Source: Rhodobacter sp. SGA-6-6
GTDB lineage: Bacteria; Pseudomonadota; Alphaproteobacteria; Rhodobacterales; Rhodobacteraceae
NCBI RefSeq assembly: GCF_011043545.1
Contig: NZ_JAAKGP010000004.1
Location: 248,001 to 312,000, forward strand
Length of the DNA: 64,000 nucleotides
Direction of reading: 5' to 3'
Position numbers and translations under genes: made by a program. Under the pieces are notes generated by a model. The model did not search any database. It had not been told where the DNA came from and was given only the letters and a program-made list of their open reading frames with translations. Shown piece by piece: positions 2,508 through 27,650 of the stretch; the first letter of the stretch is position 1, and the number at the start of each line of letters is the position of its first letter.

Positions 2508-2736
2508 TGACGCTCGACCGGATGCGCGCCGACGTGGCCCGGCTGATCGACCTGGAGCCGGAAGAGGTGGCCGACGACGCCAATCTTGCCGACCTGGGGC
2601 TGGATTCGATGCGGCTGATGCAGTTGGCGATGGGCTGGGAACAGGCCGGGCTGGCGGTGGATTTCGGGGTCCTGGCCGAATATTCCACCCTGGGCGACTG
2701 GTGGCGCGAGATCGTCGCGCCGCAGGTCCGGGCCTG

Positions 2737-2737: not shown

Positions 2738-6597
<3,860 letters not shown>

Positions 6598-6600
6598 GCC

Positions 6601-7437: not shown

Positions 7438-7479
7438 TCCGTCCCGCTCCCCGCCGCCGAAATTCGGCAGGCTGATTGG

Positions 7480-7496
7480 TTGACAAATCCTGTCAA
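7480..7496. promoter_or_regulatory. Perfect inverted repeat TTGACA-N5-TGTCAA, candidate iron operator
   Basis: TTGACA (7480-7485) and TGTCAA (7491-7496) are separated by five bases, in an AT-rich patch between two divergent genes. The site contains TGA-N9-TCA, the shape described for the iron-responsive operator bound by RirA in alphaproteobacteria. It sits 43 bp upstream of the esterase start and 82 bp upstream of the YncE-like start, so one repressor could control both. A similar arrangement with one arm imperfect lies before the TonB receptor (20673-20689). Confidence 0.5.
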
Positions 7497-7577
7497 CATT
7501 ATAGGACCTCGGCTGGTTGAAGCCAGACCGGATTGCCCGGCCAAGCCCCGAGACAAACCGCATTCTGGGAGATCACC

Positions 7578-8996: not shown

Positions 8997-9005
8997 TCCG
9001 CTGCC

Positions 9006-9030
9006 GCAGGGGGCGGTTGCCGCCCCCTGC
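9006..9030 (+). terminator. GC hairpin between the YncE-like gene and the uptake operon
   Basis: A perfect 11-bp stem (GCAGGGGGCGG, 9006-9016; CCGCCCCCTGC, 9020-9030) with a 3-base loop, 10 bp after the stop codon and 20 bp before the next ATG. The following run is CCCCTTT rather than a pure T-tract, so it may attenuate or stabilise mRNA rather than terminate fully. Confidence 0.5.
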
Positions 9031-9050
9031 CCCCTTTGCAGGCCCCTGCC

Positions 9051-10151: not shown

Positions 10152-10155
10152 GCCG

Positions 10156-11975: not shown

Positions 11976-12576
11976 GGGTGCCCCGGAGACCGCAGCCATG
12001 CAGGACGGCATGGTGCTGCGGCTTCCCGCCGGGCAGGGCCGCCTCGCCCGGCTGAGCCGCGGGCTGGCGCGGGTGGAAATCGCCGTCGGCGCCGCGTTGG
12101 TCGCGGCGATCTTCGCGTTGATGCTGGCCAATGCCGCTTCGCGCGGCTTCGGCCGGCCGCTGGTCTGGACCGACGAGCTGGCGGTGCATCTGATGGTCTG
12201 GCTGGCCTTCATCGGCGGCTCGGCCGCAGTCGCCGTCAAGGGCCACATGGTCATGGGCCTGCTGCCCGAGACCCTGTCGCCCCGCGCCGCCGCCCGGCTG
12301 GCGCTCGGGACCGACCTCCTGGTGCTGCTGTTCCTGATCGCCATGGCGGCGGTGGTCTGGCGCTGGCTGGACCTGCCCGGCCTGATCCGCGCCGGATCGG
12401 GCGTGGCGCTGGCGCAGGAGAGCTTCAACTTCATCTACACTGACCCGACTCTGACGCTGGGCCTGCGCAAGATCTGGTTCTGGCTGGTGATGCCGGTGAC
12501 CCTGCTGACCGCCATGATCCATGCGCTGGCCGCCATCGCCGAGGACCTGACCCGCCTGCGGGGGGATGCGCCATGA
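11965..12576 (+). CDS. TRAP transporter small permease (DctQ family)
   Basis: 203 residues with four membrane segments. It has a typical DctQ core (WTDELAVHLMVWLAFIGGS, then KGHMVMGLL). It partners the large DctM subunit, whose start overlaps its stop (ATGA). The ATG at 11965 is supported by GGGGAG at 11952-11957. It is unusual for its position directly behind, and overlapping, a ferri-siderophore ABC ATPase. The substrate cannot be read from sequence. Confidence 0.88.
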   Translation: MRAEGAPETAAMQDGMVLRLPAGQGRLARLSRGLARVEIAVGAALVAAIFALMLANAASRGFGRPLVWTDELAVHLMVWLAFIGGSAAVAVKGHMVMGLLPETLSPRAAARLALGTDLLVLLFLIAMAAVVWRWLDLPGLIRAGSGVALAQESFNFIYTDPTLTLGLRKIWFWLVMPVTLLTAMIHALAAIAEDLTRLRGDAP

Positions 12577-13838
12577 TCGCCGGCCTGTCCTTCGGCACCC
12601 TGTTGGCGGTGGGGGCGCCGATCAGCTTCATCCTGATCGCCTGCGCGCTGATCCTGATCGTCGAAAGCGGCGACACCGTGCTGTTGCAGGGCCTGCCGCA
12701 GCAGCTTTTTGCCGGGATCGAGAGCTACAGCCTGCTGGCGCTGCCGCTGTTCATCCTGCTGGGAGAGCTGATGGGCGCGGGCGGCATCGGGCGGCGGCTT
12801 CTCGGCCTCGCCATGGCGGTGATGCTGCCGGTGCGGGCGGGGCTGGCCTATGTCAACCTGACCGCCAACCTGATGATGGCCTCGATCCTCGGCTCCACCG
12901 TGGCGCAGCTGACGGTGATGTCGCGGCTGGCGGTGCCGGAGATGGAGCGCGCCGGCTATCCCCGCGACCTCTCCACCGCGGTGACGGCGGCGGGCGGGCT
13001 CTTGGCGCCGGTGCTGCCGCCGTCGATGAACCTGATCGTCTTCGCCGCGGTGGCGCAGCTGCCGGTGGCCGACATCTTCAAGGCCGCGGTGCTGCCCGGG
13101 CTGGCGCTTACGCTTGCCTTCGCCGGCGTGATCGGCTGGCTGGGCTGGCGGCACAACCTGCCGGTGGTCGCCCGGCAGGACCGGCAGGCGCGGCTTGCCG
13201 CCATGATCGACGCCCTGCCCGCGCTGCTGGTGCCGCTGGTCGCCGTGGGCACCATCCTCGGCGGCATCGCCACGCCGACCGAGGCCGCGGCGATGGCCTC
13301 CTTGGCGGCGATCCTGGTCGGGCGGTTCTGCTACCGCGAACTGACGCTGGCCGACCTGCCCGCCGCGCTGGCGCGGACGGCGCTGACCTCGGGCGCGGTG
13401 CTCTATCTGGTGGCGGGGGCGCAGCTTCTGGGCTGGGTGATGACCTTCGGCAACCTGCCCATGCAGGTCGCGCAGGCGATCGAAGGCATGGCCGGGTCGC
13501 CGCTGATGTTCCTGATCCTGCTGAACCTGCTGCTCCTGGCCCTCGGCACGGTGCTGGAGCCGATCCCGGCGATCATCCTGACCGCGCCGGTGCTGCTGCC
13601 GGTGGCCGAGGGGGTCTACGGCATCGACCCGCTGGTCTTCGGCGTGATCCTGTGCCTGAACCTCGCGCTCGGTCTGCTGACCCCTCCGGTCGGCGCCGGG
13701 CTCTACACCGCCTCGCTGATGACGGGGGTGGGCGCGGGACGGCTGTCGCGCCTGCTGATGCCGTTCTTCGCCGCGGTGATCGCCGTTCTGGCGGGCATGA
13801 CCCTGATCGAGGGCATGCGCGCAACCATGGGAGGATGA
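12573..13838 (+). CDS. TRAP transporter large permease (DctM family)
   Basis: 421 residues, about twelve membrane segments. It has DctM signatures such as ALPLFILLGELMGAGGIGRR near residue 55 and PPSMNLIVFA mid-protein. It forms the ion-coupled translocation unit of a tripartite transporter with the DctQ and DctP subunits on either side. One base separates its stop from the DctP start. Confidence 0.92.
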   Translation: MIAGLSFGTLLAVGAPISFILIACALILIVESGDTVLLQGLPQQLFAGIESYSLLALPLFILLGELMGAGGIGRRLLGLAMAVMLPVRAGLAYVNLTANLMMASILGSTVAQLTVMSRLAVPEMERAGYPRDLSTAVTAAGGLLAPVLPPSMNLIVFAAVAQLPVADIFKAAVLPGLALTLAFAGVIGWLGWRHNLPVVARQDRQARLAAMIDALPALLVPLVAVGTILGGIATPTEAAAMASLAAILVGRFCYRELTLADLPAALARTALTSGAVLYLVAGAQLLGWVMTFGNLPMQVAQAIEGMAGSPLMFLILLNLLLLALGTVLEPIPAIILTAPVLLPVAEGVYGIDPLVFGVILCLNLALGLLTPPVGAGLYTASLMTGVGAGRLSRLLMPFFAAVIAVLAGMTLIEGMRATMGG

Positions 13839-13839
13839 G

Positions 13840-14832
13840 ATGAGGAACACTTTCGCCGCGGCCCTGCGCCGCGCGGCGGCCTGCGCCGGTCTGGCGGTGC
13901 TGGCCCTGTCCGGCACGGCCCAGGCCGAGGCTTTGCGGATCGGCCTGATCACGCCGCCGCCGCACCGCTGGACCATCGGTGCCAACGACCTGGCCGGGAA
14001 GCTGGCCGAGGAAAGCGGCGGGCGGCTGACGTTGAACGTCTTCCCCTCGGGCCAGCTGGGGTCCGAGGCGCAGATGCTGCAACAGTTGCAGGCCGGGGCG
14101 CTGGACATGGCCTTCCTGACGGTCGGGGAACTGGCCAACCGCGACGCCGATTTCGGCATCCTGGTCGCGCCCTATCTGGTGCCCGACGCCGAAACCGCGG
14201 CGAAGCTGCTGGAGGGGCCGACCGCAGCCGCCCTGCAGGAGAAGCTGGGCGCCCTGGGGCTGAAGGGCCTGGGCTACGGCATGGCCGGGATGCGGATCGT
14301 CATCCTGTCGCAGCCGCTGGCCGAGGGCGGCACCGTGGCGGGCCGCAAGATCCGCACCGTGCCGCTGGCGCAGGAGCTGGACTTCTGGACCCGCGCCGGC
14401 GCTGCGCCCACGCCGCTGCCGCTGCCGGAACTGTTCGACGCCTATACCAACGGCCAGATCGACGGGATGCAGATCGATCTGGAAGGCACCTTCAACAACC
14501 GCTTCCACGACTATTCGGCGGCGGTGCTGGACAGCCGGCACATGATCTTCCCGATGGTGGCGGTGTTCTCGGCCCGCAAGTGGCAGGCGCTGTCCGAGGA
14601 GGACCGCGCCCTGATCTCCCGGCTGGTCGGGGACGAGACCGCGGCGATCCGCGCCGCCTATCCGGCGATCGACGCCGACTACCGGGCGAAACTGGTCGAG
14701 TCCGGGGCGCCGGTGGTCACCGTGGGACCCGAGGTCTTCGGCGATGCGGTGGAAAGCTGGTATGCGGAATGGCGGGTGAAGACCCCGCTGCTGCTGGAGC
14801 TGGAAAAGGAGGCCGCAGCGCTGCGGAAGTGA
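13840..14832 (+). CDS. TRAP transporter periplasmic binding protein (DctP family)
   Basis: 330 residues with a signal peptide (cut near GTAQAEA). It has DctP features: WTIGANDLAGKLAEESGGRL, FPSGQLGSEAQMLQQLQAG and the IDGMQIDLEGTF region, which takes the place of the usual IDGAE. DctP proteins often bind carboxylate ligands through a conserved Arg, here probably in AGMRIVIL or GRKIRTV. GGAGG sits just before the ATG. It is the last gene of the iron-uptake operon and converges on DUF3325. Confidence 0.9.
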   Translation: MRNTFAAALRRAAACAGLAVLALSGTAQAEALRIGLITPPPHRWTIGANDLAGKLAEESGGRLTLNVFPSGQLGSEAQMLQQLQAGALDMAFLTVGELANRDADFGILVAPYLVPDAETAAKLLEGPTAAALQEKLGALGLKGLGYGMAGMRIVILSQPLAEGGTVAGRKIRTVPLAQELDFWTRAGAAPTPLPLPELFDAYTNGQIDGMQIDLEGTFNNRFHDYSAAVLDSRHMIFPMVAVFSARKWQALSEEDRALISRLVGDETAAIRAAYPAIDADYRAKLVESGAPVVTVGPEVFGDAVESWYAEWRVKTPLLLELEKEAAALRK

Positions 14833-14841
14833 CCGGGCATC

Positions 14842-14864
14842 GCCCCCGCGCGATCCGCGGGGGC
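14842..14864. terminator. Bidirectional GC hairpin between convergent operons
   Basis: GCCCCCGCG (14842-14850) and CGCGGGGGC (14856-14864) form a 9-bp stem with a 5-base loop in the 31-bp gap between the DctP gene and the convergent DUF3325 gene. It overlaps the latter's stop codon. Without a T-tract on either strand the terminator call is moderate. Confidence 0.45.
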
Positions 14865-15208
14865 TATCCCAGGAGGAGGCCGCAGAGCAGCGCCGCTCCG
14901 GCCGGCAGGGCGGCAAGCCGGCCGCGGCTGCCCGGCCTGCCCCAGGTCAGCACCATCGCCAGGGCGAAGGCCGCCACCGTGGCGATGCCCAGCCAGGCCG
15001 AGACCGCAATGGCGGCATTCGGCCACCACCGGGCCGCCGGCCACACCGAAAGCACCAGCAGCCCCACCCCCGCCGCCTGCCACGGCCGGCGGTGTGCCGG
15101 ATCGGGCTTGCGGCCCCGCAGTTCCTCGTGATGGCGCGGCATGGCGAGGGCCAGCGCGACGAAACCGGCGTAGCAGAGCGCCAGCGAAAGCCAGGGCAGC
15201 ATGGTCAT
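14864..15208 (-). CDS. DUF3325 small membrane protein
   Basis: 114 residues with about four hydrophobic segments and a charged loop AMPRHHEELRGRK, characteristic of DUF3325. This family recurs as the last gene of a DUF3649-PepSY-DUF3325 trio beside TonB siderophore receptors. The ATG at 15208 overlaps the PepSY stop by 4 bp. The function is unknown; a role in the inner-membrane part of iron reduction or uptake is inferred from the conserved neighbourhood. Confidence 0.75.
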   Translation of the reverse strand: MTMLPWLSLALCYAGFVALALAMPRHHEELRGRKPDPAHRRPWQAAGVGLLVLSVWPAARWWPNAAIAVSAWLGIATVAAFALAMVLTWGRPGSRGRLAALPAGAALLCGLLLG

Positions 15209-16782
15209 TCCCCCGGCACGCGGCTGACCGCGGCCCGCCGCGGTGCCTTCGGCGCGGGCTGGCGGCCGGGGCGGGCCTTCCAGGCGGCATAGCCGCAGCC
15301 GATCCCGCAGAGCAGCGCCACCAGGTCCACCGAGGCCAGCACCATGTTGCCCTGCCACAGCGCCAGCAGCAGATTCGACGGCCCGGTGGCGGCATTCAGC
15401 AGCGGCAGCGCCAGCAGCAGGGCGGCCCCCAGCCCCAGCTGTTCGCTCCAGGCCCGCTGCGGCCCGCGCAGGAAGGGGTGCAGCGCCGCGGCGGCCCAGA
15501 GCAGGAAGAAGGCCGCGATCTCCAGCCCCGCCCGGTCCGGCGCCTCTGCCGGGATCAGCCGGTTGGCCCAGAAATACCCCGCCGTGGCCAGCGTCAGGCC
15601 CGCAATCCCGCCGACGTTCAGCCGGTCCACCAGCCGCAAGCCGAAGGGCTGCGCCCCGGATTTCGCGTGCTTCGCCGCCCGCTTCGACACCCAGAGCACC
15701 AGCCCGCTGCCCACCATCACCGTGCCCGCCAGCCCGGCGATGAAGAACAGCCAGCGCAACCCGGTATCGGCGAAGCGCGCCCGGTGCAGCGCGCCGAGCG
15801 CCATGTTGACCTTCGCCACCGCCGAGGCCTCGGGCCGCCCCGTCGCCTCGATCAGCGCGCCGGTCAGCCCGTCGAAGCGCATCCGCTCCACCCCGTTGGA
15901 GCCGGAGCCGCTTTGCACCGTCACCACCGATTGCCGCAACGGCACCAACAGGATCTCCGGCCGCTCCGTGTCCAGCTTCTCGATCTGGATGCGCCCGACC
16001 GGCATCGCCCAGGCGGCCTCGGCCTGCGCCATCAGCGGGGCAAGCGCGGTCAGCTGCGGCAGGTCGTGGGGCGGCGCCACCTCAACCACGGCCGCCGGCG
16101 GCTGGCCCAGGCCGCGGCCAGCGGGGCGGTCGATCACGAAGGGCATCAGCGTGGCGACGAAGAGGACCAGCCCGGAGAAGGTGATCATCACATGATAGGG
16201 CAGCGCCAGCACCGCGGTCATGTTGTGCATGTCCAGCCAGGACCGCTGGCCCTTGCCGGGGCGGAAGGTGAAGAACTCCTTGAAGATTTTCTTGTGGGTG
16301 ATCACGCCGGACAGGATCGCCACGAACATCGCCATGGTGGCGATGCCGACGATCCAGCGCGCCAGCTCGCGCGGCAGGCCGTGCAACTCGAAATGGAAGC
16401 GGTAGAGGAATTCGCCGCCCGCCGTCTCGCGCGGGTGCAGCACCTCGCCGGTGGTGGCGTCGATCACCGTGGCCGGCCCGCCGCGCCGCGCCGTCTCGCC
16501 CGGCTTGCTCCAGGACAGCGACAGCACCGGGCTGCGTTCGTCGGGCAGGGTGATGCTCCAGGCGGCGGCATCGGGGGCCAGTTCCGCCAGCCGGTCCAGC
16601 GCAAGGCCGGTGGGGTCGGCCGAGACCGCCGATCCGTGCAGCTCCGGCTTCATCCAGTAGGTCACCTCGCTGCGGAAATAGGCGATGGTGCCGGTCAGGA
16701 AGATCGCGAACAGCAGCCAGCCGAGCAGCAGCCCGGTCCAGGTGTGCAGCCAGGCCATCGACTGGCGGAAGCCGTTCTTCAT
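15205..16782 (-). CDS. PepSY-associated transmembrane protein (siderophore-iron reductase-like)
   Basis: 525 residues. It starts with a short cytoplasmic stretch and a helix (MAWLHTWTGLLLGWLLFAI), then a large periplasmic PepSY-type region (about 45-190) and three or more C-terminal helices with histidines such as LPYHVMITFSGL and HKKIFKEFF. Relatives such as FoxB/PiuB act at the inner membrane in siderophore use, possibly by haem-dependent reduction of the iron. It overlaps both neighbours by 4 bp, so the trio is translationally coupled. Confidence 0.82.
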   Translation of the reverse strand: MKNGFRQSMAWLHTWTGLLLGWLLFAIFLTGTIAYFRSEVTYWMKPELHGSAVSADPTGLALDRLAELAPDAAAWSITLPDERSPVLSLSWSKPGETARRGGPATVIDATTGEVLHPRETAGGEFLYRFHFELHGLPRELARWIVGIATMAMFVAILSGVITHKKIFKEFFTFRPGKGQRSWLDMHNMTAVLALPYHVMITFSGLVLFVATLMPFVIDRPAGRGLGQPPAAVVEVAPPHDLPQLTALAPLMAQAEAAWAMPVGRIQIEKLDTERPEILLVPLRQSVVTVQSGSGSNGVERMRFDGLTGALIEATGRPEASAVAKVNMALGALHRARFADTGLRWLFFIAGLAGTVMVGSGLVLWVSKRAAKHAKSGAQPFGLRLVDRLNVGGIAGLTLATAGYFWANRLIPAEAPDRAGLEIAAFFLLWAAAALHPFLRGPQRAWSEQLGLGAALLLALPLLNAATGPSNLLLALWQGNMVLASVDLVALLCGIGCGYAAWKARPGRQPAPKAPRRAAVSRVPGE

Positions 16783-17096
16783 GCCATGGCTCCCGGGACG
16801 AAGCAGAGGATCAGCGCGCAGAGGGCGGAAAGACCGAGGACCCAGGCCCAGGCCCTTGCCGCCGTCTTCGTCGCGAAGGCCAGGATCACGGCCAGCGCGA
16901 AGACCACGAAGGACAGCATCAGCGCAAGCTGTTCGGCGTCGCGCGGCGCCATCGGCACGATCCGGGCGAAGGCCGGGACGAACAGGTTGGCCAGCAGATA
17001 GCCGCCCGGCACTGCGGCCAGGCTGCGCGAGGCCACGTCGAGCCGGGACCGGGCCTGGTCGGAAAGGGCGAAGGAGGGGCGGGCGGGGGCTGACAT
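16779..17096 (-). CDS. DUF3649 small membrane protein
   Basis: 105 residues with about three hydrophobic helices (GGYLLANLFVPAFARI, LALMLSFVVFALAVILAF, LGLSALCALILCFV). It matches the DUF3649 proteins that precede PepSY proteins in iron-uptake operons. It overlaps the PepSY start by 4 bp. The 105-bp gap to the upstream YncE-like gene holds a GC-rich segment but no clear promoter. Confidence 0.75.
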   Translation of the reverse strand: MSAPARPSFALSDQARSRLDVASRSLAAVPGGYLLANLFVPAFARIVPMAPRDAEQLALMLSFVVFALAVILAFATKTAARAWAWVLGLSALCALILCFVPGAMA

Positions 17097-17201
17097 GGGG
17101 TGATCCGCTGCGAAGGTCCGGGAAGAAATCTCCCCGCCCCGGATGCCCGGGACGGGGGACGCCTGCGGCCTGGGGAGCAGCGGCCGCGGGCGGGTGTCGC
17201 C

Positions 17202-18575
17202 TCAGCCTTTCGGCGCGATGCGGGTCAGCCGGTCGCCTTCGGCATCCTCCTCGCCGCGGGCCTTGTTGACGGCGAAGACCACGCCCTCGGGCGTGACGGT
17301 CAGGTGGTTCGGGAAGGACCCGCCGTCCAGGTTCGCCACGATCCCGCCGCCGGCGGCATCGACCACGGTGATGGTGTCCGAGGCGCGGTTGGCGACATAG
17401 AGCCTGCCCGACACCGGATCGAAGGCGACGTTCAGCGTCTGCGCCCCGACCGGGGTGTCGAACACCACTTCGCCGGTCGCGCCGTCCATCGCCAACACGT
17501 CGTCGCTGCCCTGCGAGGCGACGAAGACCCGCCCGCCGGCCGGGTCGATGGCGACGCCCGAGGCGGTCTTCGCCCCCGGCAGCGGGACCAGCGTGGCCTC
17601 GCGCGAGGCCAGGTCGATCCGCGCCAGTTCCGGCGTGGACAGCGAGACGGTGTAGAGCTGGCCCTTCTCCGCATCCAGCGCCAGGCTCATGGCGGCGAAC
17701 TGGCCGCCGCGCTCGGCCGATTGCAGCGTGAAGCCCTCCAGCTTTTCCAGAGTCTTCAGATCGAATTCCTCGATCCGGGCGCGGTGGGTGCTGACATAGG
17801 CCCGCCCGCGCGCGGCGTCGATCACCACGTCACGCGGCTTCTCGACCGAGCCCGGGTCGAACTGCTTGACCAGCGACAGGTCGTCCTGCTTGTAGACCGC
17901 CACCGCCGAACTGCGGGTGTTGGTCACCCAGACCGTGCCGTTCTCATCGTCCACCGCGATGCCGAAGGCGCCGTAGATGCCGTTCGGCTCGTCCGCGAAG
18001 GGGGTGGCCTCGGCCAGCACCTCCAGCGTGGCGGCGTCGAGCTTCATGATCGTCGACGTGCCCTTGCCGCCCCGCCCGGTGGCCGAGGCGGTGAAGACCG
18101 CGCCGGCCTTGGCGCTGTAGGCGACCTGATAGACGCCGGGCGCCACCTTCACCGAGGCAACCTCATAGCCCTCAGCCCCCGAAAGCGGCACTTCGGGCGA
18201 GATCTTCAGGTCCACCACCGCGGCGCTGTCGGGCGCGGCGGCCTCGACCACCACCGGATGCAGGCCGACCACCGCATCCTGCGGCAGGGCGAAGCCGAAG
18301 CTGAAGCCGCCCTCGGCATCGGCCACCAGAGGCTCGGGCGACAGCGGGCTGCCGCCGCGGCGGAGCACCACCTCCTGCCCGGGGGCGAAGCCGGTGCCGG
18401 TCGCCACCACCTCGCCGCCGGGATAGGCGGGGCTGCGGTCGGGGCCGGAGAAGGCGACCCGGCCGGTAAAGGGCGCGGGGGCGTCGAACAGCGTCTCGGC
18501 GGGAAGCGCGGCGGCCGAGGCCAGCAGCGCGGCCAGCGCCAGCGCGGGGCGGGAGAAGCGAAGGGAAACGGTCAT
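17202..18575 (-). CDS. Periplasmic YncE-like beta-propeller protein (copy 2)
   Basis: 457 residues: signal peptide (cut near AALPAETL), an Ig-like domain and a propeller with blades such as VWVTNTRSSAVAVY and LYVANRASDTITVVDAAGG. It shares domain order and many segments with the copy at 7578-8996, including GRAYVS/GRAYAS, ASGVA-DP and a closing AVNKARGEEDAEGDR. It follows the TonB receptor by 53 bp and is probably cotranscribed with it. A partner role for the receptor or its ligand is inferred. Confidence 0.8.
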   Translation of the reverse strand: MTVSLRFSRPALALAALLASAAALPAETLFDAPAPFTGRVAFSGPDRSPAYPGGEVVATGTGFAPGQEVVLRRGGSPLSPEPLVADAEGGFSFGFALPQDAVVGLHPVVVEAAAPDSAAVVDLKISPEVPLSGAEGYEVASVKVAPGVYQVAYSAKAGAVFTASATGRGGKGTSTIMKLDAATLEVLAEATPFADEPNGIYGAFGIAVDDENGTVWVTNTRSSAVAVYKQDDLSLVKQFDPGSVEKPRDVVIDAARGRAYVSTHRARIEEFDLKTLEKLEGFTLQSAERGGQFAAMSLALDAEKGQLYTVSLSTPELARIDLASREATLVPLPGAKTASGVAIDPAGGRVFVASQGSDDVLAMDGATGEVVFDTPVGAQTLNVAFDPVSGRLYVANRASDTITVVDAAGGGIVANLDGGSFPNHLTVTPEGVVFAVNKARGEEDAEGDRLTRIAPKG

Positions 18576-18600
18576 TTCTGGGTCCGGTTGTCAGGGAGGA

Positions 18601-18623
18601 CCGGCCGCCGGTGGGGCGGCCGG
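18601..18623 (-). terminator. GC hairpin after the TonB receptor gene
   Basis: CCGGCCGCC (18601-18609) pairs with GGCGGCCGG (18615-18623) around a 5-base loop, directly after the receptor stop and before the YncE-like gene. There is no T-run, so partial termination or 3' mRNA stabilisation, lowering expression of the downstream operon genes, is more likely than a full stop. Confidence 0.4.
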
Positions 18624-18628
18624 AGGGA

Positions 18629-20671
18629 TCAGAAGGTCGAGGTCAGGCCGATGTAGACACGGCGGCCGTCGTTGTAATTGGTGGTGCCGAAGGTCTTGTC
18701 GCCGATGTTGTAGATGCCGACCGACCCCATCACGCTCTCGGTGAAATCGTAGTCGAGACCGATGTCGAAGATCGCATGTTCGCCGATGCGGCTGTTGCCG
18801 GCATCGAAGGTGGCGCTGCGGTATTGCGCATTGCCCCAGACCGAAAGCACATCGGTGGCCTGCCAGTCGATGCCGAGGTTGGCCACATGCAGCGGGCTGT
18901 TGTTGAACCGGCCGCCGACATTGGCGCCCTTGGTGATCTTGGTGTCGGCATAGGTGTAGTTGAAGGCGAAATCGACGTCGCCCATCGTCCAGTCCACCGT
19001 GGCCTCGACCCCGTTCAGCTCGGCCGCGTCGCGGTTGACATACTGGTTGATCCACTTGATCGGATCGGTGGGGGTGTTCATGCCGCAATCGGTGGGCAGG
19101 CCCGGGACTGGAGTGTCATGGGCGCAGATCTGCTCGGTGGTGATCTTGTCCTTGAACCGGGTGTGATAGGCGGTCAGGCCGACCTGCACGCCGCCCTCGC
19201 TTTCCCAGATCATGCCAATCTCGAAGTTGGTGCTCTCCTCGGGCTTCAGGTTGGTGTTGCCCTGGTCGCGCGCCCGGCCGTCGCCGCCCGAGGGCTCGAA
19301 GATGTTGCTGTCGGCCTGTTTCAGCGTCGGCGTCTTGTAGCCGCCGCTGATGCCGCCCTTCACCGTCAGCGCATCGGTGGCGTGCCAGACCGCATAGAGC
19401 CGCGGGGTGACATGCGAACCGTAGCGCTCGTTCTCGTCGTAGCGCAGGCCGAAGGTCAGGGTCAGGTCCTCGGTGACGTGGAAGTTGTCCTCGCCGAAGA
19501 CCGCCCAGTTCCAGCGGGTCATCTTCGGATCGACGTTCACCCGGTTGGGCGAATGCTTCGTCGTCTCGTCGCGGTAGTCGAAGCCCAGCGTCAGGTCGTG
19601 GCGGCCGAAGGTGAGGCTGGTCTTCGAGTTCAGGTTCAGCAGTTCGTAGCCCGAGACGTTGGAACCGTTGACGAAGGACACGTCCTCGTAGGTGAGGAAG
19701 GTGTTCGTCTCGTAGTCCTGGCCCCAGGTCAGCTTGTGATTCAGCGCGTAGTTCTTCCGCTCCACCTCGATGCCGCCCGGGGTGCTGCCCGGGGCCGAGC
19801 TGAGGTTCACCGTGTCGCTGTCGCTGAACACCGTCTCGAAATCCAGCGTCTGGTTGGCGTCGATCGACCAGGTGAGCCGGGCGCCCAGCGTCTTGCGCTC
19901 GGTGTCCTGCGATTGCGTGGAAACCGCGCCGCCGCGGCCCGCCACCAGCATCCCGGGCTTCGAGCGGTCGTGCAGCGATCCGAAGAAGGCCAGGCCCAGC
20001 TTGCCCTCGACGATGGGGCCGCTCAGGTAGAACCGCCCCTCGTGCGAGTTGCCGGCACCGCTTTCCTCGAAGTTGGTGTAGCCCAGCGTCACCGACCCCG
20101 ACCAGACATCGGCCACCGGCTTGGTGATGATGTTGATCACCCCGCCCGAGGCGGCGGTGCCGTAGAGCGAGGACATCGGGCCGCGGATCACCTCGATCCG
20201 CTCGATGGCCGAGGGCGGCGGCAGGTAGGACATGGCGAGGCCCGAGCCGAAGCCGTTGTAGGTCGCCTCCTGCGAATTGCCGATGGGCTTGCCGTCCACC
20301 AGCGTCAGCACATAGCTTTCGCCCAGGCCGCGGATCGAGATCGTCTCCGAGCCCGAGCGCGACGAGGGCGAGGAGACGATGACGCCGGGCACGTCCTTCA
20401 ACACGTCGGCGATGGTGGCATAGGGCTTCGAGGCGATCTCCTCGCCGTCGATCACCGTCATGGTGGCGGGCGCATCCGGCAGCGCCTGCGCCTGGCCGGT
20501 CGCGGTCAGCACGATGGTGCCCAGCTTCTGCGCCTTCTTCTGCTCTTCCTCGGTCAGCTCCTGCGCCGCGACCGCGCCGGCGGCCAGCAGCGGCAGGACC
20601 GAGCCCAGCGCCACCGCCCGCACCGGCAGGCACGCCAGCATGTCCGCGACGGAATTCTTCATGTCTTTCAT
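18629..20671 (-). CDS. TonB-dependent catecholate siderophore receptor (FepA/CfrA-like)
   Basis: 680 residues: signal peptide (cut near GAVAAQEL), TonB box-like GTIVLTATG, plug domain (about 55-165) with ISIRGLGESYVLTLVDGKP and IEVIRGPMSSLYGTAASGGVINI, then a 22-strand barrel ending in the outer-membrane C-terminal Phe (LTSTF). No N-terminal signalling domain precedes the TonB box. The start at 20671 follows AAGGGG at a good distance; an upstream in-frame start lacks this. The plug resembles enterobactin-type receptors, which fits the EntE/EntF genes. It heads the minus-strand operon down to 14864. Confidence 0.93.
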   Translation of the reverse strand: MKDMKNSVADMLACLPVRAVALGSVLPLLAAGAVAAQELTEEEQKKAQKLGTIVLTATGQAQALPDAPATMTVIDGEEIASKPYATIADVLKDVPGVIVSSPSSRSGSETISIRGLGESYVLTLVDGKPIGNSQEATYNGFGSGLAMSYLPPPSAIERIEVIRGPMSSLYGTAASGGVINIITKPVADVWSGSVTLGYTNFEESGAGNSHEGRFYLSGPIVEGKLGLAFFGSLHDRSKPGMLVAGRGGAVSTQSQDTERKTLGARLTWSIDANQTLDFETVFSDSDTVNLSSAPGSTPGGIEVERKNYALNHKLTWGQDYETNTFLTYEDVSFVNGSNVSGYELLNLNSKTSLTFGRHDLTLGFDYRDETTKHSPNRVNVDPKMTRWNWAVFGEDNFHVTEDLTLTFGLRYDENERYGSHVTPRLYAVWHATDALTVKGGISGGYKTPTLKQADSNIFEPSGGDGRARDQGNTNLKPEESTNFEIGMIWESEGGVQVGLTAYHTRFKDKITTEQICAHDTPVPGLPTDCGMNTPTDPIKWINQYVNRDAAELNGVEATVDWTMGDVDFAFNYTYADTKITKGANVGGRFNNSPLHVANLGIDWQATDVLSVWGNAQYRSATFDAGNSRIGEHAIFDIGLDYDFTESVMGSVGIYNIGDKTFGTTNYNDGRRVYIGLTSTF

Positions 20672-20976
20672 ATGGACACCCCTTGTCAAAAGCGCGGATC
20701 ACCCTGACCGGAGGTGGGTTCGCGGCATTTCCACAAGGCTCCACGCGCGAGGGCGGCCCTCACTGAACCGAATTCATGAATTTTTTTGTCGGATTTAATT
20801 CCGTTGCTCCGGCGGGGCCGTTTCCCGGAGGCGTCGCCATTATGCAACAGCGGCCGACAGCGACCGCGGGGCCGGTGGACACTTCTGTCTCGCGGGAATA
20901 ATTTTTTCCCAGCCAGTCCCGCGCCGCATCGGCAGACCCGCGAATCCCCCGAAAATCAGGATTTGCAGCGCGCGCC
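20672..20976. promoter_or_regulatory. Divergent control region between TonB receptor and ECF sigma gene
   Basis: This 305-bp gap is AT-rich by local standards. It holds the palindrome AATTCATGAATT (20771-20782) followed by a T-run, and a second AT island near 20897-20909. On the minus strand, TTGACA (20689-20684) and a partial TGTCC arm spaced like the 7480 palindrome lie against the receptor's ribosome site. I see no gene in it. The elements suggest iron-dependent control, but no exact promoter can be fixed. Confidence 0.4.
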
Positions 20977-21483
20977 ATGGCCCCATGCACCCGCACCGAA
21001 CTCGCCCGTCTCTACGATGACGAAGGCGACCGCCTCGAACGGCAGATCGCCCGGCGCATCGGCAACCGCAGCATCGCCCGCGACCTGGTCCACGACATCT
21101 TCCTGCGGCTCTGGGAGCGGTCGGGCGAACTGCACGGCAATCCGGCGGCCTTCGTCACCCGGGCGGCGCAGAACGTCTCCATCGACCATTTGCGGCGCGA
21201 GCGGGTGCGCAACACCCACAGCGCCGGCCTCGCCGCCAACGATCCCGCGCCCGACCCAGCCTTCGCCACCCTGGCCGCCCGGCAATCCGGGCGGGCGGTG
21301 CGCGAGGCGATCCGCGACCTGCCCGAGACGACGCAGCGCCTGTTCCTGATGAACCGCGTCCAGGGGCTGAGCTTCCGCGAGATCGCCAGCCGCTACGGCA
21401 TGTCGGAACGCAACGTGGCCAAGCACATGGCAAAGGCCGTGGCCAGCTGCGCCCGGGCGCTGGAACTCCCGCGCGGCGGATGA
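20977..21483 (+). CDS. ECF-family RNA polymerase sigma factor (FecI-like)
   Basis: 168 residues. Region 2 contains ARDLVHDIFLRLWERSG and region 4 contains LSFREIASRYGMSERNVAKHM, the helix-turn-helix. This is the size and pattern of iron-starvation sigma factors such as FecI. No FecR-type anti-sigma gene is adjacent: the next gene is on the opposite strand, and the neighbouring receptor lacks the signalling domain that normally works through FecR. It probably drives iron-uptake genes nearby, but how it is itself controlled is not evident. Confidence 0.87.
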   Translation: MAPCTRTELARLYDDEGDRLERQIARRIGNRSIARDLVHDIFLRLWERSGELHGNPAAFVTRAAQNVSIDHLRRERVRNTHSAGLAANDPAPDPAFATLAARQSGRAVREAIRDLPETTQRLFLMNRVQGLSFREIASRYGMSERNVAKHMAKAVASCARALELPRGG

Positions 21484-21498: not shown

Positions 21499-21987
21499 CT
21501 ACTCGGCCAGCCCGAATTCCACCATCTTGTCGGCCAGCTGCTCGATCCCGTCGATGGTGCGCATCGAGGGGTTCATCGCCTCGGCGCGCATGACGAAGTA
21601 ATGGCCCGCCGCCACGGCCGGAATCCGGCTGGCGACCGGGTCGGTGGTCAGGAACTCCACCTTCCGGGCCGGATCGTCGCCCTCGTTGAAGCGGCGGTCC
21701 ATCCCGGCCAGCACGATCACCGCCGGCTCGGCCCGGGCGATGGTCTCCCAGCCGACCCAGGGCCATTCGTCGTCCGAGGCGATCACGTTGCGGGCGCCTA
21801 GGCTGGCCAGCATGTAGGCGGGCGCGCCGTTGCTGCCGGCGACCGAGGCGTCCATCTCCATCTCGGGGCTGGTGAACCAGAACAGCACCGGCACGTCGCG
21901 GGCCTTCGCCGCGCGGGCCACCGCCCCGGCGGCGGGCGCCAGAAGCGGCGCAAGCAGCAGGGCGGCGAGGATCGGGCGAAGCCTCAT
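21499..21987 (-). CDS. Truncated binding protein: signal peptide plus C-lobe only
   Basis: 162 residues: a signal peptide (cut near APAAGAVARA) joined directly to a sequence that aligns throughout with the C-terminal lobe (about residues 208-336) of the binding protein encoded at 24984-25994 in the same operon. Shared segments include FWF-S-EM, SDDEWPWVGWETIARA/SDEEWPTVSWETIARA and FLTTDPVAS/FLKTDPVAS. The N-lobe and connecting helix are absent. The frame is intact and its ATG overlaps the methyltransferase stop (4 bp), so it appears to be expressed. It could be a degraded duplicate or a new single-lobe periplasmic protein. Confidence 0.75.
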   Translation of the reverse strand: MRLRPILAALLLAPLLAPAAGAVARAAKARDVPVLFWFTSPEMEMDASVAGSNGAPAYMLASLGARNVIASDDEWPWVGWETIARAEPAVIVLAGMDRRFNEGDDPARKVEFLTTDPVASRIPAVAAGHYFVMRAEAMNPSMRTIDGIEQLADKMVEFGLAE

Positions 21988-22766
21988 GGCATGTCCTTTC
22001 GGGCGGGTTTCCAGGCGATCAGGATGAAGCGGCGGTAGACCCGGGTGCGCAGCCGGTTGCGCAAGCCTTGCGTCGCCCGCTGCGCCCGGGCGATGGGGCC
22101 ATGCGGCAGTTCGCGGATGCCGGTAAAGCCCGCGGCTGCCAGCAGCGGCGCGAGGCGGTCGAAGGTCAGCCCTTCCGAGAAGGGCAGCCGCCGCATGATC
22201 CCGGCGTGGCGGTCGCTCAGCGCGCCGTCGTAATAGGCGTCCGGGGCGATCCGCTTCCACCGGGCGAGCACCCATGCCGCCCAACGGCCCCAAGGCGCGG
22301 GCCTGGTCCAGTCGCCGTCGTAGACCAGCAGCCGCCCGCCCGGGCGCAGGATGCGGAACCAGTCGGCGAAGGCGGCTTCCGGCTCGGTCAGGGTCCAGAC
22401 CAGATGGCGGCAGAGGATGGCGTCGTAGCTGGCGTCCGGCTCCATCGTGCGCTGCGCATCGGCGTGGAGGAAGCGCAGCCGCGGCTTGCCTTCGTGCTTG
22501 GCCCGGGCCACCGCCAGCATCGGCTCGGCGAAGTCCAGCGCGGTGACGTCGTGGCCGAGGTCGTGGACCAGCCGCGTCACCTCGCCGGTGCCGCAGGCCA
22601 GTTCCAGCACCTTGAGCGGCGCCGGGCCGAGGAGCCGCATGGGTTCGGCCCAGGCGGCGGCCTCCGGCCCCGGGGCGATGTGGTGGCCGAAGGCGAGGTC
22701 GAAGGTTTCGGACCGCTTCGACCAATAGGCGCGGATTTCCTCGGCCAGATCGTGGTTGGCGGTCAT
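21984..22766 (-). CDS. SAM-dependent class I methyltransferase
   Basis: 260 residues with a methyltransferase-11 type core: motif I VLELACGTGEVTRL, an acidic second motif in VTALDFAEPML and LHADAQR, and LRPGGRLLVYDGDW. The C-terminal third is basic (RNRLRTRVYRRF). Close relatives act on small molecules or lipids; the substrate here is not evident. It overlaps pseudoazurin upstream and the half binding protein downstream by 4 bp each, so it belongs to the cobalamin-riboswitch operon. Confidence 0.8.
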   Translation of the reverse strand: MTANHDLAEEIRAYWSKRSETFDLAFGHHIAPGPEAAAWAEPMRLLGPAPLKVLELACGTGEVTRLVHDLGHDVTALDFAEPMLAVARAKHEGKPRLRFLHADAQRTMEPDASYDAILCRHLVWTLTEPEAAFADWFRILRPGGRLLVYDGDWTRPAPWGRWAAWVLARWKRIAPDAYYDGALSDRHAGIMRRLPFSEGLTFDRLAPLLAAAGFTGIRELPHGPIARAQRATQGLRNRLRTRVYRRFILIAWKPARKDMP

Positions 22767-23179
22767 TGCGGGTTGGCGGCCAGGATCGCCTCGAACCTTT
22801 CGCGGGCGCGGGCCGGCAGGTCCTCGGGCAGCGCCGGCGCAGGCGCATCGCCGACCTCGATCAGCATCACCATGCCCATGGCGAAATGGGGGGAACACTT
22901 GATGCCGTAGCTGCCCGGCACCGTCAGGGTGACGAAGAAATCCTCGTTGATCTTCGACTTGAACGGCTCCGCCCCCTCCGGGATCATGCCGTCGATGGCG
23001 GCGGCGTTGTGGCTGGGCTGGGTGGGCACGAAGCGCACGGTATCGCCGGGGGCGATGCTCAGGAACGAGGGTTCGTAGATCATCGGGCCGTTGTCGCTGC
23101 GGTTGAACATCTGCACCTCATGCGTCTCGGCAAGGGCGGGAGCGGCAAGCAGCATGAGGACAAGGGCGGCGGATTTCAT
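22763..23179 (-). CDS. Pseudoazurin-type blue copper protein
   Basis: 138 residues with a signal peptide (cut near APALAETH). The type 1 copper ligands are His57 (PSHNAA), Cys95 and His98 (KCSPHFAMGM) and Met103, the order and spacing of pseudoazurin. It should carry electrons in the periplasm, classically to nitrite or nitrous-oxide reductases. No denitrification gene is near; instead it sits 3 bp downstream of a corrinoid-uptake ATPase gene, which is unusual. Confidence 0.88.
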   Translation of the reverse strand: MKSAALVLMLLAAPALAETHEVQMFNRSDNGPMIYEPSFLSIAPGDTVRFVPTQPSHNAAAIDGMIPEGAEPFKSKINEDFFVTLTVPGSYGIKCSPHFAMGMVMLIEVGDAPAPALPEDLPARARERFEAILAANPQ

Positions 23180-23182
23180 CGG

Positions 23183-23950
23183 TCACTCCTGAAGGCAGTG
23201 GAAGCGGAACTGGGTGGCGTCGTCGGCGGGGTCGCGCAGCGGTGTGGCGCCGACGCGGAAGATCGCGGCAAGGCGGGCGGGGGTCAGCACCTCGGCCGGC
23301 GGGCCGCAGGCGGCAAGGCGGCCACCCTCCATCACCGCCAGCCGGTCGCAGCCCATGGCCTGGTTGAGGTCGTGCAGCGCCACGATCACCGTCACCGGCA
23401 GCCGGCTGACCAGCCGCAGCAGCGACAGCTGATGGTGGATGTCCAGATGGTTGGTCGGCTCGTCCAAGAGCAGCAGCCGCGGCCGCTGCGCCAGCGCGCG
23501 GGCGATATGGGTGCGCTGCCGCTCGCCGCCCGAAAGCGTGGCCCAGGGACGGCCGGCGAAGGCCGAAATGCCGATGGCGGCCATCGCCTCCTCGACGATG
23601 GCGGCATCTGCCGCGCCGAAGGGCGCCAACGCCGACAGCCAGGGGGTGCGCCCCAATTCCACCGCGTCGCGCACGCTCAGCGCCTCGGCGGTGTCGGCCT
23701 GCTGTTCCACCAGCGCGATGCGGCGGGCGATCTCGCGCCGGGACAGCGCGGCCAGCGGCACCCCGTCCAGCCGCACCTCGCCCGTCGCCCGCGGCAGCAG
23801 CCCGGCGACCAGCCGCAACAGCGTGGACTTGCCCGAGCCGTTGGGGCCGACCACGCCCAGGGTCTCGCCCGGGGCGACCTCCAGCGTTACCCCCTGCACG
23901 ATGGCGCGGGGGCCGGCCGTCCAGCCGAGGGCATCGGCGGAGACCCTCAC
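23183..23950 (-). CDS. ABC transporter ATP-binding protein (BtuD/FecE type)
   Basis: 255 residues. Walker A GPNGSGKST, signature LSGGERQRTHIARAL, Walker B LLLLDEPTNHLD and switch His in IVALHDLNQAM. It is the third gene of the riboswitch-led operon and energises the permease, whose stop overlaps its start by 4 bp. The cobalamin riboswitch suggests a corrinoid or cobalt-chelate substrate; sequence alone cannot separate this from siderophore ATPases. Confidence 0.9.
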   Translation of the reverse strand: MRVSADALGWTAGPRAIVQGVTLEVAPGETLGVVGPNGSGKSTLLRLVAGLLPRATGEVRLDGVPLAALSRREIARRIALVEQQADTAEALSVRDAVELGRTPWLSALAPFGAADAAIVEEAMAAIGISAFAGRPWATLSGGERQRTHIARALAQRPRLLLLDEPTNHLDIHHQLSLLRLVSRLPVTVIVALHDLNQAMGCDRLAVMEGGRLAACGPPAEVLTPARLAAIFRVGATPLRDPADDATQFRFHCLQE

Positions 23951-24987
23951 AGCCGCCTCCGGTTGCGGATCAGGATTAGGGCGAAGCCCGGCGCGCCGAC
24001 CAGCGCGGTGACGACGCCGATCGGCACCACCTGCCCCGGGATCAACACGCGCGAGACGACATCGGCGGCGATCAGGAACACCGGCCCGGCCAGGGCGACA
24101 GCGGGCACCAGCGCCCCGTGGCGCGGCCCGGTCAGGAAGCGGGTGGCGTGCGGGATCACCAGCCCGACGAAGCCGATGGAGCCGACGAGGCTGACCATGC
24201 TGGCCGTCATCAGCGTGGTGGCGCCGATCAGCACCGCCTGCACCCGCCGCACCGGGATGCCCAAAGCGGCAGCGGAATCGGCGCCGAAGGAGAAGGCATC
24301 CATCGACCGCATGTGCCAGAGGCAGACGATGAACCCGGCCAGCGCCACCGGCACCGCCAGCGACACGTCGGGCCAGCGCACGCCGGACAGGTTGCCCAGA
24401 AGCCAGAACATGATCCCGCGCGCCTGTTCGGCATTGGCGGTCTTGGCGATGAAGAACGAGGTCAGCGCGTTGAACAGCTGCGACCCGGCGATGCCCGCCA
24501 GCACCAGCTGCGCCGGCCCGCCCCCCGCCGCCCGCGCCAGCGCCACCACCAGCAGGAAGGCCAGCGTCGCGCCGCCGAAGGCCCCGGCCGAGATGCCGAC
24601 CAGCCCGCCGCCGACGCCCATGATCGTCACCGCCACCGCGCCGGTGGAGGCCCCGGCCGAGACGCCCAGCAGGTAGGGATCAGCCAGCGCGTTGCGGATC
24701 AGCGCCTGCAGCACCACGCCCGACAGCGCCAGCCCCGCGCCGCAGGCCGCCGCCACCAAAGTGCGCGGCAGGCGGTAGTTCCAGATGATCCCGGCCTCGA
24801 TCGGGTCGACCGGATGTCCGGCATTCCACAGGTTGTTGGCGAAGACCGCCGCCACCGTCGAAAACGGCAGCGGCGTCTCGCCGATGACGACGCCCGCAAG
24901 GACCGCCACCAGCAGCACGGCAACCCCGGCCGCCCCGCGCCCGACGAGGGACCGGGCGCGAAGGCCGTGGGTTGCCGCGATGCTCAT
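23947..24987 (-). CDS. ABC transporter permease (BtuC/FecCD family)
   Basis: 346 residues, about ten membrane segments. Family signatures are LIRNALADPYLLGVSAGASTG and GSIGFVGLVIPHATRFL. It is flanked by and overlapping (4 bp each side) the binding-protein and ATPase genes. With the upstream cobalamin riboswitch, the system is most likely a vitamin B12/corrinoid importer. Confidence 0.9.
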   Translation of the reverse strand: MSIAATHGLRARSLVGRGAAGVAVLLVAVLAGVVIGETPLPFSTVAAVFANNLWNAGHPVDPIEAGIIWNYRLPRTLVAAACGAGLALSGVVLQALIRNALADPYLLGVSAGASTGAVAVTIMGVGGGLVGISAGAFGGATLAFLLVVALARAAGGGPAQLVLAGIAGSQLFNALTSFFIAKTANAEQARGIMFWLLGNLSGVRWPDVSLAVPVALAGFIVCLWHMRSMDAFSFGADSAAALGIPVRRVQAVLIGATTLMTASMVSLVGSIGFVGLVIPHATRFLTGPRHGALVPAVALAGPVFLIAADVVSRVLIPGQVVPIGVVTALVGAPGFALILIRNRRRL

Positions 24988-25994
24988 TTCAGGCCGAAGG
25001 CCGGCAGCGCCTCGGCCAGCACCTCCAGCGCCGCGACGTTGCGGATCGAGGGGTCCATCGAATGGGCGTCGAGAATGACGATGCGGCCGTTCTTCACCGC
25101 ATCCATCTGGCTGGCCACCGGATCGGTCTTCAGGAACTCCAGCTTCTTCTCGACGTCATCCGCGTCGAAGCGGCGGCGCTCCATCCGGGCCACCACGATC
25201 ACCGAAGGGTTGGCGCGGGCGATGGTCTCCCAGCTGACGGTCGGCCATTCCTCGTCGCTTTCCACCACGTTGCGCAGGCCCAGCTTCTCCATCATGTAGC
25301 CGGGCGGTCCCATGCGGCCGGCGACATAGGGGTCCACGTCCATCTCGGCCGAGGAGAACCAGAACACCGCCGAGGCATCGGTCAGGTCCAGCGCCTGCGC
25401 CTTCTCGATGGCGGCGGCCTCGCGCGCCTTCAGGCCGGCGACCAGTTCCTCGCCCTTCTCGGGGACATCGAAGATCTGGCTCAGTTCGGTCACGCCGGCA
25501 TAGATGCTGTCCATCTCGAACATCGCCAGCCGGGTGCCGTCCGAGCCGGCGGTGTTGTCCTTCTTCCAGCAGTCGGCCGGCAGGATGTAGGTCGGAATGC
25601 CGACATCGGCGAACTGCTCGCGGGTGGCGACGATGCCCTGCGGGCCGATGTGCCATTCATACTGGATGGCGACGAGACCGGGCTTCTTCGCCAACACGGA
25701 TTCGAAGCTGGGGTCGTTGTCGGCCAGCCGTTCGACCTGCGCGTTGACCTCGGCGAATTCGGGCAGAACTTCGGTGAACCAGACCGAGGTGCCCAGCACC
25801 TTGTCGCCGAGGCCCAGCGAATAGAGGATCTCGGTCGCGGCCTGGCCCACGGTCACGGCGCTTTCGGGCGCCTTGTCGAAGGTCAGGTCGACGCCGCAGT
25901 TCTTCAGGCTCAGCGGATAGGCGGTCTCGGCCGCGGCGGGCAGCGCGAGACAGGCCGCACCCAGCAGGGCGGCCGTCAGGGAACGGGCGAACAT
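24984..25994 (-). CDS. ABC transporter substrate-binding protein (BtuF-like)
   Basis: 336 residues with a signal peptide (cut near PAAAETAY). The N-lobe (about 30-180), a long helix (GEELVAGLKAREAAAIEKA) and the C-lobe (about 208-336) form a cluster A-III periplasmic binding fold. Cys33 and Cys142 could form a disulphide. The ATG at 25994 directly begins the signal peptide; upstream in-frame codons lie in the leader. About 165 nt of leader separate it from the cobalamin riboswitch. Corrinoid binding is inferred from that control. Its C-lobe is duplicated at 21499-21987. Confidence 0.85.
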   Translation of the reverse strand: MFARSLTAALLGAACLALPAAAETAYPLSLKNCGVDLTFDKAPESAVTVGQAATEILYSLGLGDKVLGTSVWFTEVLPEFAEVNAQVERLADNDPSFESVLAKKPGLVAIQYEWHIGPQGIVATREQFADVGIPTYILPADCWKKDNTAGSDGTRLAMFEMDSIYAGVTELSQIFDVPEKGEELVAGLKAREAAAIEKAQALDLTDASAVFWFSSAEMDVDPYVAGRMGPPGYMMEKLGLRNVVESDEEWPTVSWETIARANPSVIVVARMERRRFDADDVEKKLEFLKTDPVASQMDAVKNGRIVILDAHSMDPSIRNVAALEVLAEALPAFGLK

Positions 25995-26159
25995 GGATCG
26001 TCTCCGGTGTGTGATGCGACCGGAGACGGGAAGGGGACGCCGGCCCGGAAGCTGGCCCGCGCAAGGCTGCGCGCGCTGGCGGTCTGCGGTGCCGTGGGGC
26101 ACCTTGGGGCAAAGATCATCCGACACCTCCCCGGACACCCCGCCCGGGCCGCGTTGAAG

Positions 26160-26332
26160 TTACGTCGGCAGGTCTCCTGACTGGCGGGTCGTCGGGCTTT
26201 GCGGCCTTCCCATGGTTTGCACCACAGTGGCGTGTTCGCAAAAACCCTCACCGCCTACAGTTGCGGGGGCAGTTCCGGTTCACCGGACAGGTCCGGCGAC
26301 GGATTCCCTTTCAATTCCTTGCGGAAACCGAC
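26160..26332 (-). promoter_or_regulatory. Cobalamin riboswitch upstream of the BtuFCD-like operon
   Basis: Read on the minus strand the segment has the conserved order of AdoCbl riboswitches: AAAGGGAA (near 26310), CCGGTGAACCGGAACTGCCC with CCCGCAACTG just after it (near 26260-26285), GCCACTG, GGGAAGG, and the B12 box CCAGTCAGGAGACCTGCC near 26167-26184. It lies in the leader of the minus-strand uptake operon, and adenosylcobalamin should repress it. Confidence 0.93.
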
Positions 26333-26473
26333 AGCGATCCGACTACCCCGCCCTGCCCCTCCGGGCAAGGGAAATGTTCGGGGAGGCGAGTCCGGACCCG
26401 GCCCGTCGGCGGCACCGCGGGCGTGCCCGGCGCAGGAAAGGGGGCGCTACCCTCTCGCCGCTACGCGCCCCAC

Positions 26474-27283: not shown

Positions 27284-27329
27284 CTGCCCTCTCCTTGACT
27301 TTCGCGCCGCAAAGTGGCTTGGCTCCTGC

Positions 27330-27530
27330 CATCGCTGGTTCCTGCTTATGGCAGGCGAAGAGGGAATGCGACAGCCCGACGCCGAAAGGCCGGGGTGAAG
27401 CGCAGCCGCCCCCGCGACCGTGACCGGAGAGGTCGCCCGACCGCCACTGGGGAATACCCCGGGAAGGCAGGGCGCCCGCCGGGGGTTCCGCCCCCGACAT
27501 CCGCAAGCCGGGAGACCTGCCAGCGCCGGC
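27330..27530 (+). promoter_or_regulatory. Cobalamin riboswitch leading the cob operon
   Basis: The plus strand contains GAGGGAATGCGAC, GGTGAAGCGCAG then CCGCCCCCGCGACCGTGA (near 27394-27423), GCCACTGGGG, GGGAAGGCAGGG and a B12-box variant AGCCGGGAGACCTGCCAGC (27505-27523), in the canonical order. It ends about 120 nt before the first gene (27651) and should repress the whole cobW-cobC run when adenosylcobalamin is plentiful. Confidence 0.93.
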
Positions 27531-27650
27531 CCCTGTCCAGGGGGCTGTCCGTAGCCGCGGCCGGGGTGTGCCGCAGACCGGAGTTGCCCGCGCGGCATCC
27601 CCGAGTCTTCGCGACCCCGTCCGCCCCCGATCGTCTGGCCGGAGGGGCCG

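Follow-up and report, generated by a model that had tools for sequence, protein, structure and literature searches.

A single-lobe gene at the end of a cobalamin riboswitch-headed importer operon as a probable N-lobe-deleted allele of a second class III binding protein

RESULTS AND DISCUSSION

A half-length binding protein gene ends an importer operon

The window (the whole stretch of 64,000 nucleotides of Rhodobacter sp. SGA-6-6 DNA that was analysed) carries on its minus strand a cobalamin riboswitch followed, in order, by genes for a full-length substrate-binding protein (SBP1), a permease, an ATPase, a pseudoazurin and a methyltransferase, and lastly by a gene that encodes only half of a binding protein. 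The features are given below, where L011 denotes the locus in a relative that carries a full-length version of this last gene, SBP2.

26150..26347, minus strand: cobalamin riboswitch upstream of the operon (RF00174, 110.4 bits)
24984..25994, minus strand: SBP1, full-length class III binding protein of 336 aa, the operon's first gene (profile matches)
23947..24987, minus strand: FecCD-type permease (profile match), whose R72, R75 and R313 align with BtuC R56, R59 and R295
23183..23950, minus strand: ABC ATPase of the importer (profile match)
22763..23179, minus strand: pseudoazurin (TIGR02375, 131.3 bits, cut-off 109.85)
21984..22766, minus strand: SAM-dependent methyltransferase of 260 aa, overlapping the half gene at ATGA; the codon that is a stop in L011 is CGA here
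21994..21999, minus strand: AAAGGA, ribosome-binding-site-like, 6 nt before the half-gene ATG; same hexamer in L011
21499..21987, minus strand: the half gene, SBP2-deltaN, putative N-lobe-deleted second substrate-binding protein gene of 162 aa, signal peptide plus C-lobe (translation; second half of PF01497 only; full-length parent at L011:88-1098)
21922..21987, minus strand: signal peptide, residues 1-22, ending A-G-A, the same as that of the full-length parent and derived from it (cleavage site by eye)
21922..21926, minus strand: putative deletion junction, 522 nt gone (174 codons, parent residues 23-196), GGC microhomology, four equivalent placements (459/489 nt identical, k = 62-65)
21502..21921, minus strand: C-lobe, residues 23-162, with E81 kept as the equivalent of BtuF precursor E202 (alignment; AlphaFold2 mean pLDDT 90.6)

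The gene at 21499-21987 is real. Translation gives an intact frame of 162 aa with no frameshift or stop, and the conserved C-lobe positions are retained, so the gene lacks the marks of decay expected of a pseudogene. Its product opens with a hydrophobic signal-type segment, recognized by eye, whose last residues are PAAGA, and what follows matches only the second half of the PF01497 profile (positions 124-234 of 235; 49.8 bits against a cut-off of 27.5). By this profile the half protein belongs to the class III substrate-binding proteins, over half the profile only, and it lacks the two lobes, rigid helix and ligand cleft that characterize the class. The earlier note had described a signal peptide joined to a C-lobe only, in an intact reading frame, and both points are confirmed. 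It had also proposed an alignment with SBP1, which does reveal a C-lobe match far beyond chance (49% over 152 aa; E = 1e-46 for a single comparison), but SBP1 is not the source protein, as described below.

Control of the operon by the cobalamin riboswitch would follow from its position, and the riboswitch suggests a corrinoid as the ligand of the transporter. SBP1 itself, however, scores below the cut-offs of the models for BtuF (NF002894; 18.6 bits against an equivalog cut-off of 234), EitA (NF052484; 308.1 bits against an equivalog cut-off of 640) and a putative F420-0 binding protein (TIGR03868; 179.4 bits against 392.4). The half gene likewise remains below the curated cut-offs of NF052484 (114.5 bits) and TIGR03868 (58.1 bits).

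Six of eight congener regions carry the complete order SBP1, permease, ATPase, pseudoazurin and methyltransferase, and of the remaining two, one is without a pseudoazurin match and the other without a methyltransferase match within the stretch. Pseudoazurin and methyltransferase, both present in 6/8 congener regions, are therefore recurrent partners of this importer type. Relatives of the methyltransferase (66%) and of the pseudoazurin (80%) also occur in a Shinella plasmid and a Paracoccus yeei plasmid, respectively. Genome G227 harbours a second cassette of binding protein, pseudoazurin and methyltransferase (L046:6809-9004) that is convergent with its own SBP1, permease and ATPase genes, and this represents another extra binding protein beside a methyltransferase.

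Several other features of the window were recorded. An ECF sigma factor gene (20977-21483) is convergent with the half gene and ends 15 nt from it. Judged by eye, window positions 2701-20689 look like a siderophore region, with NRPS-like and esterase-like frames, a separate binding protein, permease and ATPase, and TRAP-type genes; two similar beta-propeller-like proteins (7533-8996 and 17202-18575, also by eye) lie within it. The best NCBIfam models for the TonB receptor of this region are PRK13513 and also CirA, below cut-offs. Three cobalamin riboswitches are present in the 64 kb (26150-26347, 27319-27538 and 48461-48655).

A full-length parent in a relative

When genome contigs were scanned with the half protein, a single locus was returned, L011, on a 7082-base contig (CALMEG010000219.1) of the uncultured Rhodobacteraceae MAG SRR2107182_bin.32, the same MAG as G126. 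Only 87 nt precede the SBP2 start codon on this contig, which opens inside the 3ʹ part of the same methyltransferase gene and so covers just that end of the operon; the full-length SBP2 encoded next has 336 aa. Compared with this parent, exactly 522 nt are absent from the half gene in one gap, and 459 of the 489 remaining nt are identical (93.9%). The absent segment runs from the presumed first residue after signal peptide cleavage almost as far as the inter-lobe helix extends. In the parent, AlphaFold2 places this helix at residues 179-199 (mean pLDDT of the model 92.4), and the deletion boundary lies at 196/197. The two proteins are 96% identical over residues 31-162 (91% if the misaligned signal peptide is included), and both carry the same signal peptide (window MRLRPILAALLLAPLLAPAAGA, L011 MTLRPILAALLLAPWLAPAAGA).

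Because a full-length parent occupies the corresponding place after the same methyltransferase end, and because 522 nt are absent at a single clean junction whereas the retained nucleotides are 93.9% identical, the comparison, made with a parent known from a single 7-kb MAG contig, strongly supports the half gene as an allele of SBP2, a second and deeply diverged binding protein, that has lost its N-lobe. Its signal peptide is then the parent's own and was never re-equipped. The earlier observation thus had the anatomy right and the origin wrong: the C-lobe does not come from the operon's first binding protein, the parent being only 51% identical to SBP1, and the signal peptide regarded as newly supplied is already there in the parent.

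The methyltransferase end differs between the two genomes. In L011 a TGA stop lies 11 nt before the SBP2 ATG; the window has CGA at this place and reads on until its stop overlaps the half-gene ATG (ATGA). Among seven congener methyltransferase ends compared, six stop near the L011 stop point and the seventh is too diverged to compare. The overlap therefore looks derived, since L011 and 6/7 congeners stop earlier, where the window has CGA. As for the translational coupling to the methyltransferase that the earlier note had claimed, the overlap is real and the AAAGGA hexamer is in place 6 nt upstream, but the arrangement does not look ancestral.

SBP2 lineage and distribution

Two trees place SBP2 on its own long branch, apart from SBP1 and its orthologues. 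The first comprises 41 rows, namely the half gene and loci with at least 230 aa matched, exclusive of the order-wide search; its end branch for the half row is inflated, with the signal peptide aligned against the helix region of the parent. The second, made by a quick method, has 39 rows, with the half gene, L037 and L038 left out and L098 added. Alignment A1 (41 rows) is without L008, L027, L037, L038, L066 and other loci of the order-wide search, and alignment A2 (27 rows) is without L037 and L038. Full-length SBP2 is at best 58% identical to any full-length row other than SBP1. A plasmid collection yielded 1273 records with a relative, all below 60% identity, with 58.0% as the best SBP2 match, and the C-lobe encoded in G706, a genome of another family, shares 60% identity with the half protein. 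On these comparisons SBP2 reads as a deep lineage and not as a copy of SBP1.

Matches were found in 27 of 394 family genomes (drawn from a larger group), where SBP2 appears in the window genome and G126 only and the other 25 are at no more than 55%. In the genus, 9 of 13 genomes match the half protein, the window's own included, and the matches other than the half gene are 49-52% identical. No second binding protein was seen in the eight congener operon regions read. The genomes of L011 and of the window belong to different genus groups, and the genus of G126 is represented by one genome in the collection, which supplied no nearer relative. The SBP2 C-lobe region shows 93% DNA identity between L011 and the window genome, whereas an ABC-F-like gene from the opposite end of L011 shows 87% and the methionine-synthase-like L011 genes in between have only a 62-base match there (both gene names by eye). 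As the congener regions carry no second binding protein, we infer that SBP2 was an added, laterally acquired gene. The DNA identities between the two genus groups are in keeping with this, although one contig is thin evidence and the L011 contig may be misbinned.

Directly after SBP2, L011:1100-2560 holds remnants that by eye resemble IS transposase and serine recombinase genes. Part of this stretch, bases 1381-1689, matches contig C17 of the window's genome (its bases 371-679) at 75% identity.

Searches for other stand-alone C-lobes

A search for stand-alone C-lobe homologues, as the earlier note had advised, covered 13 genomes of the genus, 390 of the order and 385 of the class, three overlapping sets that all contain the window's own genome, and disclosed no second short C-lobe gene. 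The order genomes gave 61 matches, two of them the window genome's own, and the other 59 lie in stop-to-stop frames of at least 336 aa; the class genomes gave seven matches from other genomes, all of at least 347 aa. Such a frame alone proves little for full length, as that around the half gene itself is given as 453 aa. Upstream sequence was therefore read at 27 loci (8 congeners and 19 from the order search), and at least 183 aa in frame precede the match in all 27, with the N-lobe [NR]CG motif upstream of the match in 26. The evidence of full length from upstream reading covers those 27 loci, and the remaining order and class matches are judged by their stop-to-stop frames. A family of stand-alone C-lobes was rejected on the basis of these long frames and the N-lobe-length upstream sequence in 27/27 loci.

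Constraint and deletion breakpoints

Over the C-lobe part, the half gene and L011 differ by 19 synonymous and 5 replacement codons, which corresponds to a pairwise dN/dS of 0.073 over 140 codons. When the five replacements are assigned by family majority, two fall to the window lineage and two to the L011 lineage, and one is ambiguous. Wherever a C-lobe residue is conserved in at least 85% of the family and present in the parent, the half protein has it too. Neutral drift was simulated with 400 runs per setting. On a branch with 9-10 synonymous changes it produced a mean of about 22-34 replacements, against the 2-3 assigned, and therefore most of the window branch has been under constraint; neutral drift over the whole of this branch is excluded. 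Over 4 synonymous changes, three or fewer replacements arose in 4-10% of runs, and over 2 such changes in 34-46%. The low pairwise dN/dS may consequently reflect a recent deletion with free drift since or a lobe that is still constrained, and both fit.

The breakpoints coincide with domain borders (set as residues 20-30 and 176-207), a result attained by 14 of 3417 possible in-frame deletions of at least 90 nt with at least 3 nt of microhomology, and by 39 of 7562 in any frame. This figure is post hoc, as the target was set after the gene had been seen and the finding was chosen for its neat look. The domain-precise breakpoints are the main hint of a possible kept function. Alternatively, they may reflect survivorship, because a clean, foldable and exportable remnant is likelier to persist.

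Fold and docking of the product

The AlphaFold2 model of the half protein is a single lobe, and a fold search with it retrieves class III binding proteins, with 4n01 and 4mlz as the best and E. coli BtuF (1n2z) at rank 18. AlphaFold2 gives a confident prediction for almost any excised domain that has homologues, and a confident model of this kind says nothing on whether the protein is actually present.

In the BtuCD-F complex, as passages of PMC3741162 describe it, BtuF docks through two glutamates that form salt bridges with arginines of the BtuC dimer; the glutamates are written there as Glu74/Glu202, of which the first number differs from the precursor count E72 used here. Alignment with E. 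coli BtuF equates SBP2 E99 with precursor E72 and E255 with precursor E202, and both columns are Glu in 41/41 rows, BtuF included. The half protein has lost the N-lobe E99 equivalent and keeps that of E255 as E81, and so is left without the glutamate pair. Because only E81 is kept and the permease arginines are present, a one-sided, weaker docking on the permease would be conceivable, whereas delivery of a ligand in the normal way would not.

Proposed history and rival explanations

These observations can be assembled into the following history. In an ancestor, the riboswitch-headed ABC importer operon would have included, after its methyltransferase, a gene for a second class III binding protein of full length, SBP2. 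Later, 522 nt were lost in one event at a direct repeat of 3 nt; the N-lobe and almost the whole inter-lobe helix went with them, the frame was kept, and the signal peptide came to precede the C-lobe directly, an origin shown by the comparison with the one relative, L011. The half gene is probably still translated, and its product exported and folded as a single C-lobe. This product presumably cannot carry ligand normally, since it lacks half of the cleft and has one docking glutamate where two are usual, and SBP1 alone would serve the permease. The half gene would persist as a recent, nearly harmless relic that at most competes weakly with SBP1 for docking. We consider it likely that the gene is such a deletion allele, most probably the recent relic of a redundant binding-protein gene, and this is the best reading, though others remain.

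The earlier note had left the choice between a relic and a new partner. The relic fits best, by way of the in-frame SBP2 deletion, and the case for a new partner has no positive support beyond facts that are equally compatible with a recent deletion, namely the intact frame, the conserved residues, the low dN/dS and the border breakpoints. A functional stand-alone C-lobe, which is exported and uses the glutamate it has kept to dock on one half of the FecCD-type permease, in competition with SBP1 or to tune it, or else dimerises into a two-lobed binder, would be in keeping with the gene's own signal peptide and ribosome-binding hexamer, with one docking glutamate kept, with the presence of the permease arginines, with the predicted single-lobe fold, and with breakpoints shared by so few in-frame options. 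However, the half gene is known from one genome, no further short C-lobe gene was seen in the genus, order and class sets, both glutamates are normally present, and the confident fold is what any excised domain would give; since a recent deletion explains the same facts, we regard this function as unlikely. Its more specific form, in which an exported single-lobe protein sits on half of a corrinoid-type importer and modulates SBP1 loading as a natural regulator or competitor of a class III importer, seems distinctly doubtful.

That the source strain has a full-length SBP2 and the half gene is an assembly or sequencing artefact is very improbable. The allele does come from one assembly only, and the missing segment is exactly in frame, but the junction is internal to a contig of 349,641 bases in a 4.29-Mb assembly of 67 contigs (rated 100% complete, 0.16% contaminated), just 3 nt of repeat are available to mislead an assembler, and the flanking methyltransferase and C-lobe read normally. 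A copy of the SBP1 C-lobe fused to a new signal peptide could account for the resemblance to SBP1, yet it is refuted by the full-length L011 parent, with its closely matching C-lobe, signal peptide and methyltransferase end, and by the separate branches of SBP1 and SBP2; we give it almost no credence. Nor is there more than the slightest chance of a split binding protein that takes its N-lobe from another gene, as a search of the window's own genome with full-length SBP2 returned only SBP1 and the half gene, and a split gene with an N-lobe elsewhere was rejected on that ground.

Comparison with known systems

The locus offers a clear case in which the gene for a two-lobed binding protein appears to have been reduced in one step to a gene for one lobe, with frame, export signal and operon position retained. 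It also carries a warning that a gene composed of a signal peptide plus half a domain need not be a new fusion; here, an intact gene in a relative settles the case. If the half protein does act on the permease, it would provide a natural test of whether a single lobe suffices for docking.

The nearest counterpart is the full-length SBP2 of MAG SRR2107182_bin.32, which is like the half gene in position, signal peptide and C-lobe (96%), and differs in possessing the N-lobe and the complete inter-lobe helix, 174 residues more. With class III (FecB/BtuF-type) PF01497 proteins in general, the half protein shares the C-lobe fold and the C-lobe docking glutamate, whereas it is without the N-lobe, complete helix, ligand cleft and N-lobe docking glutamate. 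Among named NCBIfam models, NF052484 (EitA) and TIGR03868 score best for both SBP1 and the half gene, with scores below the curated cut-offs. In literature on single-lobe, half or pseudogene binding proteins, the sole near case found was that of ribose-binding-protein lobes, and we make no claim that others are absent from print. Passages of PMC9815098 report a 21-kDa truncation and permuted lobes of the Thermotoga maritima ribose-binding protein, in which a lone lobe or part is made by itself and is stable. The truncation is credited there to Cuneo et al. 2008, and an M142A change was used to prevent it. The lone lobes of this other class exist in a monomer-dimer equilibrium, with the C-terminal lobe forming no reliable dimer, according to the same passages. 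That case differs from ours in that the fold is of type I, the full-length gene itself gives rise to the truncated product, and the lobes were obtained as engineered permutants, whereas the half gene described here would owe its single lobe to a deletion in the gene itself.
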